A program made the translations under genes and the position numbers. From Panorpa germanica (taxonomy: Eukaryota > Arthropoda > Insecta > Mecoptera > Panorpidae), in assembly GCA_963678705.1 (NCBI GenBank), contig OY783212.1, forward strand, positions 1,736,001-1,800,000: a stretch of 64,000 nt of DNA, given 5' to 3'. Within the stretch, counting starts at the first letter, position 1. Each line of letters begins with the position of its first letter. Below, in pieces: positions 50,566 to 55,010 of this stretch. A model generated the notes under the pieces. The model saw only the letters and a list, made by a program, of their open reading frames with translations, made no database searches and was not told where the DNA came from.

Positions 50566-50940
50566 TTAGAAAACCATGGCCTACGTTTCAGTACTGGTTG
50601 TATTTTATAGAATTCTCTACCTTTATCAGAATTATACCACTTGTGCTGCTGCTTTTTCAATTCATTTGCTCATTTAATTTGAACTATAAATAATCTTTAG
50701 GTTAATAAGCTTTATCAACGTCAGGAAATATAAAATTATTTCTAAAGATAACTTTTGTTATGTAAGCTTACAATAAATTCAAATGGTGTTATGTATCAAA
50801 TAAACTAAATTATGTTTATATGTAAGTGTTATGTAAATAAACCATAAATATCTATATAATTGTGTTTACCGGTTAAAGATGATTTAGTCTCAAAATGGTT
50901 AACTAACCTTTAAACTAAAGACCATAGTAGCCCAGTCATT

Positions 50941-53686
50941 ATAGTAAGTTCACCTCGGAATTCGAGATACCCAGCTGTAAGTCTGTAAATACTTGTATAT
51001 TGACACCCTAAAAGTTGTCTCAAAACCTACATATGGTAGGGTGTGCGCAACTATTAAATTTCAAGGTCAAAGGTCACAATAATCGGTTTTTTGCGCTTTT
51101 TTTGTAAATATCTCATTTCCTATGGGTTTTTTGCTATTTGTATTTATTATCAATATTGTAGAATACAAAATTCTCTACAAATTTTGTTTAAAAAAATTTT
51201 TTATACGGTGAACCGTTTTCAAGATAGAGGGCGGAGAGCGCGCGGTCATAGGATCACTTTAGGTCAACCGGTGCCTCCGGTCGAAAACGCGCCATATATA
51301 GTTGATGAACTATCGATAAATCAATGATTATAAATATTTGTCAATTTTTATTAACTATTATATTATATTTTATCATTTTTTTCCCAACCTATCCACTTTT
51401 TATTCATCCCATTCACTTTTGTCCATGTAATTGCAGAAATTGTTAATGAAAATATAGGAATTATATTTGAATTTTAACCTAATTAATATTAATAACTTCT
51501 TATATGATCAAAAAAAAAAAAAAAATAATTATGAATTAATCTTTTTATTAAAAAATATCATTCAATACACATACACATATTTTTATTAAAAGTAAAAAAA
51601 TGGAATAAAGGGTACAAAAACTACAATTTATAATTTTAATCATCTTCTTCCTCTTCATCGTCGTCTTCTGGCTGCTGGTAAATTTCAAACTGGTCTTCAT
51701 TATCGTCTTCAACGACATTTGTCTCAAGTTCTTCCATGAATTCTGGGTCAAAGGTTCCATCTTCGTTAATGTTGCTCTGATATGGTAGAGCATTGAGACA
51801 AGCTTGCCCATTACATTGGCCACAAGCTAAAGAGCATTGCAAGCCCGCTTTCCTGCATCCGCATCGCGAACCACAACCACTCTTGCAGTTGCAGAAAATT
51901 GTATTAAGCAAATCTTCTGGAGCAGCTGGTAAAATTGTCATGATAGGCTCCAGAAAATCGTTTCGCATTGCCCAACCCCATACCTGGGGTTCCAAATCAT
52001 GCCCTAACCAAGTTTCAACTTGATAATATACACGTTTGAAATGTTGATGAGCAGCTGCACTTGTTGGTGGAATATTTGAAAGCTGCACAGGTTTATTAAG
52101 TTTTGTAGACTTGACGTAATGCATATAACGAAGATGATCGAGACTTTTCACAGATTTCGGAGCATTATAGACTGCCAATAAGGTTTGAGTTCCACTCTCT
52201 AATAATCTCTGGGCCGAACAATTTTCTTCCTCAAATGCTGCAGCTAGTTCATCCAAATTTGTCAGTTTCTCAAAAACTTTTAAAAATGTTTTTTTTTCCC
52301 TTTTTAAAAAGCGCAGAAGTTGTGTCACAGCCACAAAATATGTGTTTTGGAATGAGGATAATTATCAAAACTTTTAGTCGAGTATATCTCCGTTTTTACA
52401 TTTCCTTTCCCAACTTTTTTAAAGAAAATTTCTTGTTCGTAAGACAGTGTACGCCCAATTAAAATGACAAGTAAATCAATATCTTGTCCTATTATAACTG
52501 CAGTTTTTTCAGACTTTGATTCTTCAATTGCAGTTTTAACAATAAGAACATCCGCACATTGCAGTTCGTAGAGATTTCATACCGCGCACTACTTCAATAA
52601 GCGATTCACCTCCCGAATCTGACTTATTACATAGAAAACACAAATCAGCCATAGTTCTATAATATAATAATTCCCAGGTATAATTTTTGACGTAGTGGAA
52701 GGATTTTAAAATTTACAGATGTTAAAGAAGATGCATGTTGCGTACTATAAGTCTTAATAGACAGAACCAGCTGATGGACCACATCGGCTCTTTAATTTTA
52801 GTTTTTTTTTTGTTATAAATGTAAATTGATTGTAAATTTTGTATTCATTATTAGTTTAAGGATTGTGCTAGTAACATTGTAATTTAGATTGTATTGTACT
52901 TATGTTTATTTTACTATTAACTTTAACTATTATATTCGACGAACAAAGACATTCCTTTTTTTGCACAGTTGCTTGTAGTTTGAATAAATTAATTTTAAAC
53001 GAATAAACATTAACGTGGTTTTCTTCACATTTTTCGGCAACATCATCGTACAACATCGCAAAAATGATCGCGGTTCAAACAATGCACTTAATTATTTTCT
53101 ATTTAAAATGTCATTAGTGTAAATGGGAATATAATTATATTATGATTCAAGTTTTTCCCTTAATTATTTTTTAATTTTAGGAAACGGTTATCAGTATTAT
53201 TGAATAGATATAGATTTATTGCATGAAAAAAATGATAAAATATAATATAATAGTTAATAAAAATTGACAAATATTTATAATCATTGATTTATCGATAGTT
53301 CATCAACTATATATGGCGCGTTTTCGACCGGAGGCACCGGTTGACCTGAAGTGATCCTATGACCGCGCGCTCTCCGCCCTCTATCTTGAAAACGGTTCAC
53401 CGTATAAAAAATTTTTTTAAACAAAATTTGTAGAGAATTTTGTATTCTACAATATTAATAATAAATACAAATAGCAAAAAACCTATAGGAAATGAGATAT
53501 TTACAAAAAAAGCGCAAAAAACCGATTTTTGTGACCTTTGACCTTGAAATTTAATAGTTGCGCACACCCTACCATATGTAGGTTTTGAGACAACTTTTAG
53601 GGTGTCAATATACAAGTATTTACAAACTTACAGCTGGGTATCTCGAATTCCGAGATTCTTACCTAATTTAAGCTTAAATGACTGGG
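50941..53686. mobile_element. 2.75-kb element with about 450-bp terminal inverted repeats
   Basis: The left arm (50941-51383) and right arm (53228-53686) are near-identical inverted copies, both starting CCCAGTCAT at the outer end and meeting around TATCATTTTTTT inside. The outermost 40 bp carry small indels; the inner about 390 bp differ at only a few positions. Each arm includes a GC-rich stretch with GCGCGCGGTC. Between them lies the broken gene at 51636-52652. CCATAG occurs just outside both ends, but no clean target duplication can be set. I do not recognise the superfamily; the long arms resemble fold-back type DNA transposons. Near-identity of the arms suggests fairly recent insertion or gene conversion. 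Confidence 0.85.
51636..52652 (-). pseudogene. Frameshifted CXC-cysteine protein gene inside the inverted-repeat element
   Basis: The longest open part (51636-52334, 232 aa) contains VYYQVETWLGHDLEPQVWGW, then CNCKSGCGSRCGCRK and CSLACGQCNGQACLN, a tesmin/TSO1-like CXC cysteine cluster, and an acidic tail (EDDDEEEEDD). Upstream pieces in other frames continue the same protein: MADLCFLCNKSDSGGES near 52652, then AVIIGQDIDLLVILIGRT, then CGCDTTSALF. At least three single-base shifts (near 52545, 52335 and 52275) separate them, so the Met at 52334 is not a real start. This block order is, from memory, that of a repetitive gene family of unknown function in invertebrate genomes. The short distance from the N-terminal piece to the IGQDIDLL block suggests an internal deletion. 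Function not established. Confidence 0.7.
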
Positions 53687-54049
53687 CCATAGATTATTTA
53701 CAGATAATAAAGTCATATGAAGCTTAATTTATTGTTATCATTATCAAAATAAATTCAGAAGAATATTGTAAAAACCCACACTTTCCTCTTAAGGTCATAT
53801 CCTATTCTTAATGCTATCAATCAAATAATGAATGGTTGGTAGAATATCTGCGTTTCTTTTTTGTACTAAATTCTTTTTATTTACCTTAATCAATTGACCA
53901 TTCGAAATGTATAATCCAAAGTTCAAGAAATTTCTTCGAATTACTTTTCATTACTAATCAAATAATAGTTATTTGGATGATTGGCAAAAAGCAACTCTCT
54001 TTTTAAGATGTATGAATCACATGAGAACTGTGCGGCTTCTTAATTTAGT

Positions 54050-55010
54050 CAGTTAGAAAATGTTTACTTTATCTTATTTTAGCTACATCCTAATAAATGT
54101 TTTCAACAAGAAAATTGCATTAAAATAATAAAAATTTACTATGAAAATGATGGATCTGTAAAAGTTACATTTCATAAAATTTATGATATTTTCGGTCTAC
54201 ATAATCGTTTTTCTGAGCCAACACCAATGCGTGTTCGACCGGGTCGTTCTAGTGAAAACAATGCAGCTGCAAGCCACAGTGTTGAAGAAGATCCGAATTT
54301 GTCAATTCACGACGTTCTCAACAATTGGGATTATCCAATGCGACCATATGGCGAATTTTTCGTAAAGATTTGGCTTTGAAATCTTCAGAGATGTAGTTGG
54401 TGCCAGAATTGAAGCCGACCGACCATTCACAATGCCGTAGATTTGCTCATTTCATTCAAGAACAAGCCGGTGGTTTTTCTGGAAAATTCATTTTTTTCAG
54501 AATTTTCATTTGTGAACAAGCAAAGTTACCGCATTTGAGCTTCTGAAAATCCAAGAGAGATTGTTGAGAAGCCTTTGCATGCATGTTCTGGAGGTGTGAT
54601 TGGGCAGTTTTTTTTCGAAAATGCAATGGATTACGTTATCGGAGATGTCAACAACTCAATTCTGGCCTATTATTGATGAAATGGTATCACTGACAAGTGG
54701 TTTCAACAGGACGGTGCCACAAATCACACAGCCAACGAAATAATAGTTTCACGAAATTCAGCTATTAAGTGGCTGGCCTGATCATGTGATTTAACACCAC
54801 CGGATTATTTTTTGTGGGGTTATGTTAAAGACAGAGTCTATACGGAGCCAATCGAATCGATTGCAGCCTTAAAACTCAAAATCCGTGACGTGATTTACGA
54901 AATAGACACGCCATTTTGCCAAAAGGTTATTGAAAATTCTGAAAAAAGAATCGACATCTGTCAGCGCAGCTGTAGTGAACATTTGTTCGATATTATTTTT
55001 CATTCATAAT
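54050..55010 (+). pseudogene. Degenerate mariner-like transposase
   Basis: Plus-strand pieces in several frames: IKIIKIYYENDGSVKVTF (N-terminal helix-turn-helix), MRVRPGRSSENNAAA, VEEDPNLSIHDVLNN, then WFQQDGATNHTANE-like and, in one open stretch (54812-55009), WGYVKDRVYTEPIESIAALK ending HLFDIIFHS. The layout matches insect Tc1/mariner-superfamily transposases whose C terminus reads TPPDYFLWGYVKD. Many stops and frameshifts; no intact frame. Terminal inverted repeats not located. Confidence 0.75.

Follow-up and report, generated by a model that had tools for sequence, protein, structure and literature searches.

The window analysed here, a 64,000-nucleotide stretch of Panorpa germanica DNA, holds a broken minus-strand gene with a cysteine cluster between two long inverted arms, which raises the question of what kind of element this is and whether the gene belongs to it. 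Comparison of this locus with its relatives in the same genome suggested, with a probability of roughly 0.84, that it is an AcademX-like cut-and-paste DNA transposon from the Academ superfamily, in a non-autonomous form with an internal deletion; membership in Academ was judged from architecture, duplication length and published descriptions.

By comparison with same-genome copies, the element was placed at positions 50928–53689. The original prediction had found the element at 50941–53686, and its limits had to be moved slightly outwards to reach the flanking TAG, which is present as a target-site duplication at 50925–50927 and 53690–53692. Terminal inverted repeats were present in the window element and in relatives of its family. 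The left terminus, TAGCCCAGTCATT (50928–50940, plus strand), lies on the 3′ side of the gene and forms a boundary common to other copies; the right terminus, which reads inward as TGGCCCAGTCATT (53677–53689, minus strand, placed by copy comparison), lies on the 5′ side. The near-identical inverted arms proposed to bracket a minus-strand gene were indeed found, as two 430-bp arms (50954–51383, plus strand, and 53225–53654, minus strand) that are 99% complementary and separated by 1841 nt. Because the pair is near-exact over 430 bp and the arm recurs in the genome, it is not a chance pairing.

The ends of copies and subfamilies, TAG or TGG, were first read from the repeats. A subsequent scan of 32 end pairs looked for TAG/TGG ends by pattern, so that the start of the ends was built in; a 3-bp target duplication was observed in 25 of the 32 and a 4-bp one in two. 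No duplication of 3–4 bp was found in the remaining five, namely the 6.4-kb copy described below, L013, a small element in L015, L017 and L025, the last of which was mispaired, its right arm extending beyond the stretch examined. The duplications that had been proposed as a check were thus found, at 3 or 4 bp in 27 of 32 end pairs, but the empty site was not: the left flank, which alone was searched, matched short dispersed repeats beyond itself (40 of 466 candidates scored).

Inspection of the gene remnant supported the predicted minus-strand cysteine cluster and the blocks upstream of it. A single frame at 51636–52289 corresponds to the putative C-terminal part of a transposase gene, with the segment that follows the nuclease motifs, a CXC-like cluster of nine cysteines recognised by their spacing (CNCKSGCGSRCGCRK..., 51792–51893) and an acidic tail. 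The CGCDTTSALFKKGKK block, which aligns with the FEN1 motif GSDYCES...GPK, lies in a second frame (52291–52335), and the rest of the nuclease-like domain, ADVLI...GQDIDLLVILI...KTHIL, in a third (52334–52555), with the IGQDIDLLVILI block at 52457–52492. All of these are on the minus strand, and the cluster and the two blocks are in three different frames. Further upstream, also on the minus strand, come the junction of a large internal deletion (52556–52559), which was recognised from the longer copies L047 and L011, and an N-terminal gene piece with a zinc-finger-like start (MADLCFLCNKSD..., 52560–52652). Missing at the junction is the stretch from near the N-terminus through a DDE-like region to the middle of the nuclease. 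The same comparison with L047 and L011 bore out the proposal that this copy is an internally deleted member. At least three frameshifts had been predicted, and three frame breaks were confirmed: the deletion junction; a 17-bp deletion at 52334/52335, seen in the window copy only among nine aligned copies; and one extra A in the run at 52289–52297 relative to copies with an open frame there, the same run being present in L022 among the other eight copies.

Database searches returned little for these pieces. No Pfam family reached the cut-off with the window pieces or with relatives, and the CXC (tesmin/TSO1-type) family was not matched by the window pieces up to E 1 or by the relatives up to E 10. 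Nothing useful was obtained from PDB searches by sequence or by profile, and the predicted structure of a 241-residue piece from the window was poor (mean pLDDT 41.7). Two further stretches were also observed. A segment of ~346 bp lying 5′ of the gene (52736–53081) aligns in sibling copies, and in large part in L012 and L020, and is absent from L047 and L026. Just to the right of the element, on the plus strand, lies what was judged by eye to be a broken-frame remnant of a Tc1/mariner-like transposase (54080–54990).

A protein search with the 241-residue piece gave at least 150 match rows (150 of 433 candidates scored). The matches listed fell into groups at identities near 95, 62, 46 and 35%, which we refer to as subfamilies A, B, C and D; the letters are our own and follow identity. 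The window element belongs to A, and the members examined of the others have long arms of their own, spanning about 470–590 (B), 310–355 (C) and 714–746 (D) alignment columns. In the window, the two stretches between short end and long arm (50941–50953 and 53655–53676) differ in length and sequence, and a like asymmetry between the sides was seen in representatives of B, C and D. Six C-type copies were found within ~145 kb (G000 C3:13378666-13522480), as if by segmental duplication. Searches for relatives gave 81 pattern matches in viral_contigs and 28 in genome_contigs, none of which was confirmed.

The link between gene and arms was then considered from both sides. A genome search with the left arm gave at least 42 matches (40 of 592 candidates scored), and in 20 loci picked by arm match (L009–L028) gene pieces lay beside the arms in 19, L027 being the only one from which they were absent; L015 also holds a 238-bp gene-less element with the same ends. 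Among 17 loci picked by gene match (L029–L041 and L045–L048), both arms were present in 12 (L029, L030, L033–L039, L041, L046 and L047, with one arm shortened in L036) and a single arm in two (L031 and L032). None of the four arm types was found within the examined stretches of the other three, L040, L045 and L048. The gene pieces of L048 sit inside an inverted pair of their own, of 122 bp. L040 has most of the gene front and no arm within the 12 kb examined, and a C-type arm palindrome lies at C1:4815683, 817 bp past that stretch. The proposed linkage held for 19 of 20 arm loci and, with both arms, for 12 of 17 gene loci.

Internal deletions were found to vary between the copies of subfamily A. 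Six copies (L016, L019 and L021–L024) aligned to the window element over its full length of ~2.75 kb and thus share its complete structure, which implies that the deleted form multiplied as such, as a non-autonomous element. Arm divergence averaged 1.6% within copies and 1.4–1.9% between copies (18 copies with both arms), values which are consistent with a recent spread of the subfamily. The same comparison was used to test for homogenisation of the two arms within copies, and none was found.

Longer copies were reached with a query that took in the first nuclease motifs and the part of the gene upstream of them. A copy on contig C8 measures 6,378 bp, has both C-type arms and contains all parts of the gene in order, although in broken pieces: a cysteine-containing start; a region marked by NAD, VTFDQ...LGxFH and IEQ; and then the nuclease-like and CXC parts. 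In L047 the arms are of A type and the gene keeps its N-terminal and DDE-like parts, and L046, of subfamily B, has the N-terminus, the DDE-like part and the CXC part, its nuclease being deleted. The order of N-terminus, DDE-like region and CXC part is thus the same in subfamilies C, B (L046) and, by locus overlap, A. In an alignment of six sequences, some of them partial, two from one subfamily and the most distant ~25% identical, T[FIY]D was kept in all six, [IL]EQ in all four sequences that reach it and DNxD in three of four, the 6.4-kb copy having H in place of the first D. A search with the DDE-like region gave 38 match rows (all 51 candidates scored), against at least 150 for the nuclease/CXC part, a rough ratio in that the two queries are not of the same length or subfamily. 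This scarcity would follow from deletions in which both ends are spared, since the DDE-like region is central and the CXC part lies close to an arm. None of the loci examined held a full-length gene free of interruptions.

Judged from these alignments, the broken gene in the window represents the C-terminal portion of a longer one, in which a DDE-like region lies upstream. The original prediction had taken the gene to travel in a long-armed DNA transposon or to form its core; it is indeed part of such a core, but not a complete family of its own. An unrelated transposase in full-length copies had been named as counter-evidence, and what the longer copies contain is a transposase-like region inside the same gene. 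A separate observation concerns L045:3016-5406 (G000 C8:228000-236000), which carries an uninterrupted frame of 797 codons that shares ~25% identity with the DDE-like region; neither a nuclease-like frame nor long inverted arms were seen in the 8 kb examined. Three weaker matches lie on contig C2. The frame could belong to another lineage or be a host-adopted gene.

For the nuclease-like part, the motif order IIDGG, VFDGY, QAxxDAD, GxDIDLLV and GCDTTS..KGKK corresponds to what we take to be the catalytic residues of FEN1, and after realignment with six FEN1 sequences all motifs were in register over 221 columns. The hhalign score of 22.4, carried by 24 columns around VFDG, was not significant: 60 column shuffles gave a mean of 14.8 (sd 2.6, maximum 22.3), and the reversed profile gave 16.4. 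With FEN1 alone as the comparison, P was 0.05, and a forced global alignment was unsuccessful. In Pfam, 5_3_exonuc_N (E 0.03) and NYN (E 0.036) appeared in one of ten members, which points in the same direction, but families with no known link scored alike (DUF4674, 0.022 in L029; SPATA6, 0.13 in two of ten members). A profile search of the PDB found no match up to E 10. With a FEN1 query, 18 pattern matches in genome_contigs were not confirmed, no relative was found in phages, and one archaeal plasmid record matched. The likeness to FEN1/XPG (PIN-like) nucleases thus lies in the order IIDGG, VFDG, DAD, DxD, GCD..KGKK in one realignment, while FEN1 differs in having E158 and E160 where D-A-D stands here. 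It is likely, by motif order though without statistical support, that this part is of the FEN/XPG type.

Substitution patterns were compared between and within subfamilies. The A–B coding pair L011/L030 gave a dS of 1.50 and a dN of 0.15, a ratio of 0.10, which implies that the protein was kept by selection during subfamily divergence. Between A and C, dS was above 2 or not computable. Pairs within a subfamily showed at most 19 changes each and ratios from 0.25 to above 1, leaving aside those with L029, which were inflated by a misaligned N-terminal stretch.

The arms themselves contain conserved blocks. In the window, the subfamily alignment places a tandem AGGTCA block (TTCAAGGTCAAAGGTCA) in the left arm 133 bp from the end (51060–51076, plus strand) and in the right arm 142 bp from the end (53532–53548, minus strand), and a palindrome, TTGTAGA...TCTACAA, at 51156–51180 (plus) and 53428–53452 (minus). 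A third block, AACCGTTTTCAAGATAGAGGG, was recognised by eye in the alignment at 51211–51231 (plus) and again, in the alignment, at 53377–53397 (minus). Overall, the arms of subfamilies A–D were poorly alike (median 8–14 identities per 25 columns in five arm pairs). In A, B and C, each subfamily being represented by one element, TT[C/T]AAGGTCAAAGGTCA began at 133 in one arm and at 142–143 in the opposite one; this tandem block, which thus lies 9–10 bp further in on one side, was absent from the D arms. The palindrome, as TTGTAGx...xCTACAA, began at 217–238 in all eight arms of the four subfamilies, and in B (L029) both halves were changed together, to TTGTAGG...CCTACAA, so that it is still palindromic. 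The third block (AACCGTTTT...) was seen by eye near 275–295 in A, B and C. The blocks stayed alike at like distances from the ends while coding dS reached at least 1.5.

In the whole genome, the 15-mer CAAGGTCAAAGGTCA occurred 222 times and its reversed control twice. Among 100 of its places listed, 69 lay no more than 4 kb from a gene or arm match on the lists, where random places would give 0.5; counting gene matches only, 66 did so. The palindrome pattern, which leaves out the B form, occurred 668 times against once for the reversed control; in 100 places listed, 31 pairs within 8 kb faced inward and no pair showed the reverse arrangement. A listed gene match lay between 20 of the 31 pairs and none between the other 11, the gene lists being lower bounds. 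The blocks may bind a transposase or a host factor, and they provide testable candidate sites for either. The tandem AGGTCA block presumably resembles nuclear-receptor sites. It is a speculative and rather doubtful extension that the arms form an old, position-fixed cis code of tandem block and palindrome, in which, if a host nuclear receptor reads the former, transcription or excision would be tied to hormone-receptor state, the palindrome serving the transposase.

From what was observed here, namely the arms and ends, the duplications, the order of the gene parts and the conserved D/D/E blocks, a likely mechanism can be proposed. The parent gene, estimated from pieces at ~1,500 codons, would encode a zinc-finger-like N-terminus, the DDE-like region, a nuclease of FEN1/XPG motif order, the CXC cluster and an acidic tail. 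Transposase from fuller relatives would bind sites in the long arms and mobilise deleted copies in trans; its DDE centre would excise and insert the element with a stagger of 3 bp or, at times, 4 bp, while DNA branches at excision or insertion would be trimmed or opened by the FEN/XPG-like domain. The form to which the window copy belongs lost the central part of the gene, spread in this deleted state and has gathered frame breaks.

Other readings of the locus were weighed against this one. Seen alone, the window copy has arms around a gene unlike a transposase, as would be expected had an unrelated transposon picked up a host nuclease/CXC gene between its arms. That reading is hardly credible, however, as the same gene occurs in four subfamilies, each with its own arms and with alike ends and arm blocks; longer copies join the nuclease/CXC part to the DDE-like region; and gene and arms diverged jointly. 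It is also very unlikely that the nuclease/CXC protein is the whole transposase of a DDE-less transposon, with the long copies as side products. Such a reading would suit the rarity of the DDE-like region noted above (38 rows against at least 150, from queries of different length and subfamily), the open frames of 400–600 codons that remain in several derivatives and the dN/dS of 0.25–0.6 in some pairs of these frames. But those low ratios come from no more than 19 changes in any pair, ratios above 1 occur in other pairs, and three copies whose frame has 517 codons show no synonymous differences and 3, 3 and 6 nonsynonymous ones; moreover, the N-terminus, the DDE-like region and the CXC part keep one order in C, B (L046) and A (by locus overlap).

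Somewhat less improbable, but still unlikely, is a separate superfamily outside Academ, whose cut-and-paste transposons would combine DDE-like and FEN-like parts. No Pfam family reached the cut-off for the gene, Academ was likened by description, and the ends here are TAG[C/A]CC. Duplication length, the joining of nuclease-like and DDE-like parts and element length nevertheless match AcademX and Academ in the published accounts (PMC10045372, PMC10294476, PMC5199201), and an AcademX-like Academ element is the reading that we prefer.

If the same holds elsewhere, this reading would bear on more than one locus. Unassigned invertebrate proteins with the block order DLLV-GCDTT-CXC, which the original prediction described as repetitive in invertebrate genomes, would be tail parts of Academ-type transposases; such tails would turn up without the rest of the gene because, as in this genome, fuller copies are fewer than deletion derivatives. 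In the literature, no paper was found on the block GCDTTSA or on a joining of Academ with XPG, and the XPG label for the AcademX nuclease is our assumption. It had been suggested that carriage of the gene inside such arms may be undescribed. This did not hold up: carriage in arms is to be expected, since the whole fits the described Academ/AcademX kind. The family here has arms of ~310–750 bp with conserved blocks, and its likeness to Academ is one of description. Academ is given as a DDE/D superfamily with a mean length of 5,565 bp in bivalves (PMC10294476), with which the element length here agrees, and an insect survey lists 3-bp duplications for Academ (PMC5199201). AcademH, which shares the superfamily by name and is described in PMC10045372 as having 9–10 bp duplications and a helicase, differs from the present family, in which duplications are 3–4 bp in 27 of 32 end pairs and the gene pieces gave no Pfam match to a helicase family. 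AcademX, to which the same paper ascribes duplications of 3 or 4 bp and an encoded nuclease (PMC10045372), resembles it in the duplications and, with the nuclease-like part, probably in the encoded protein.
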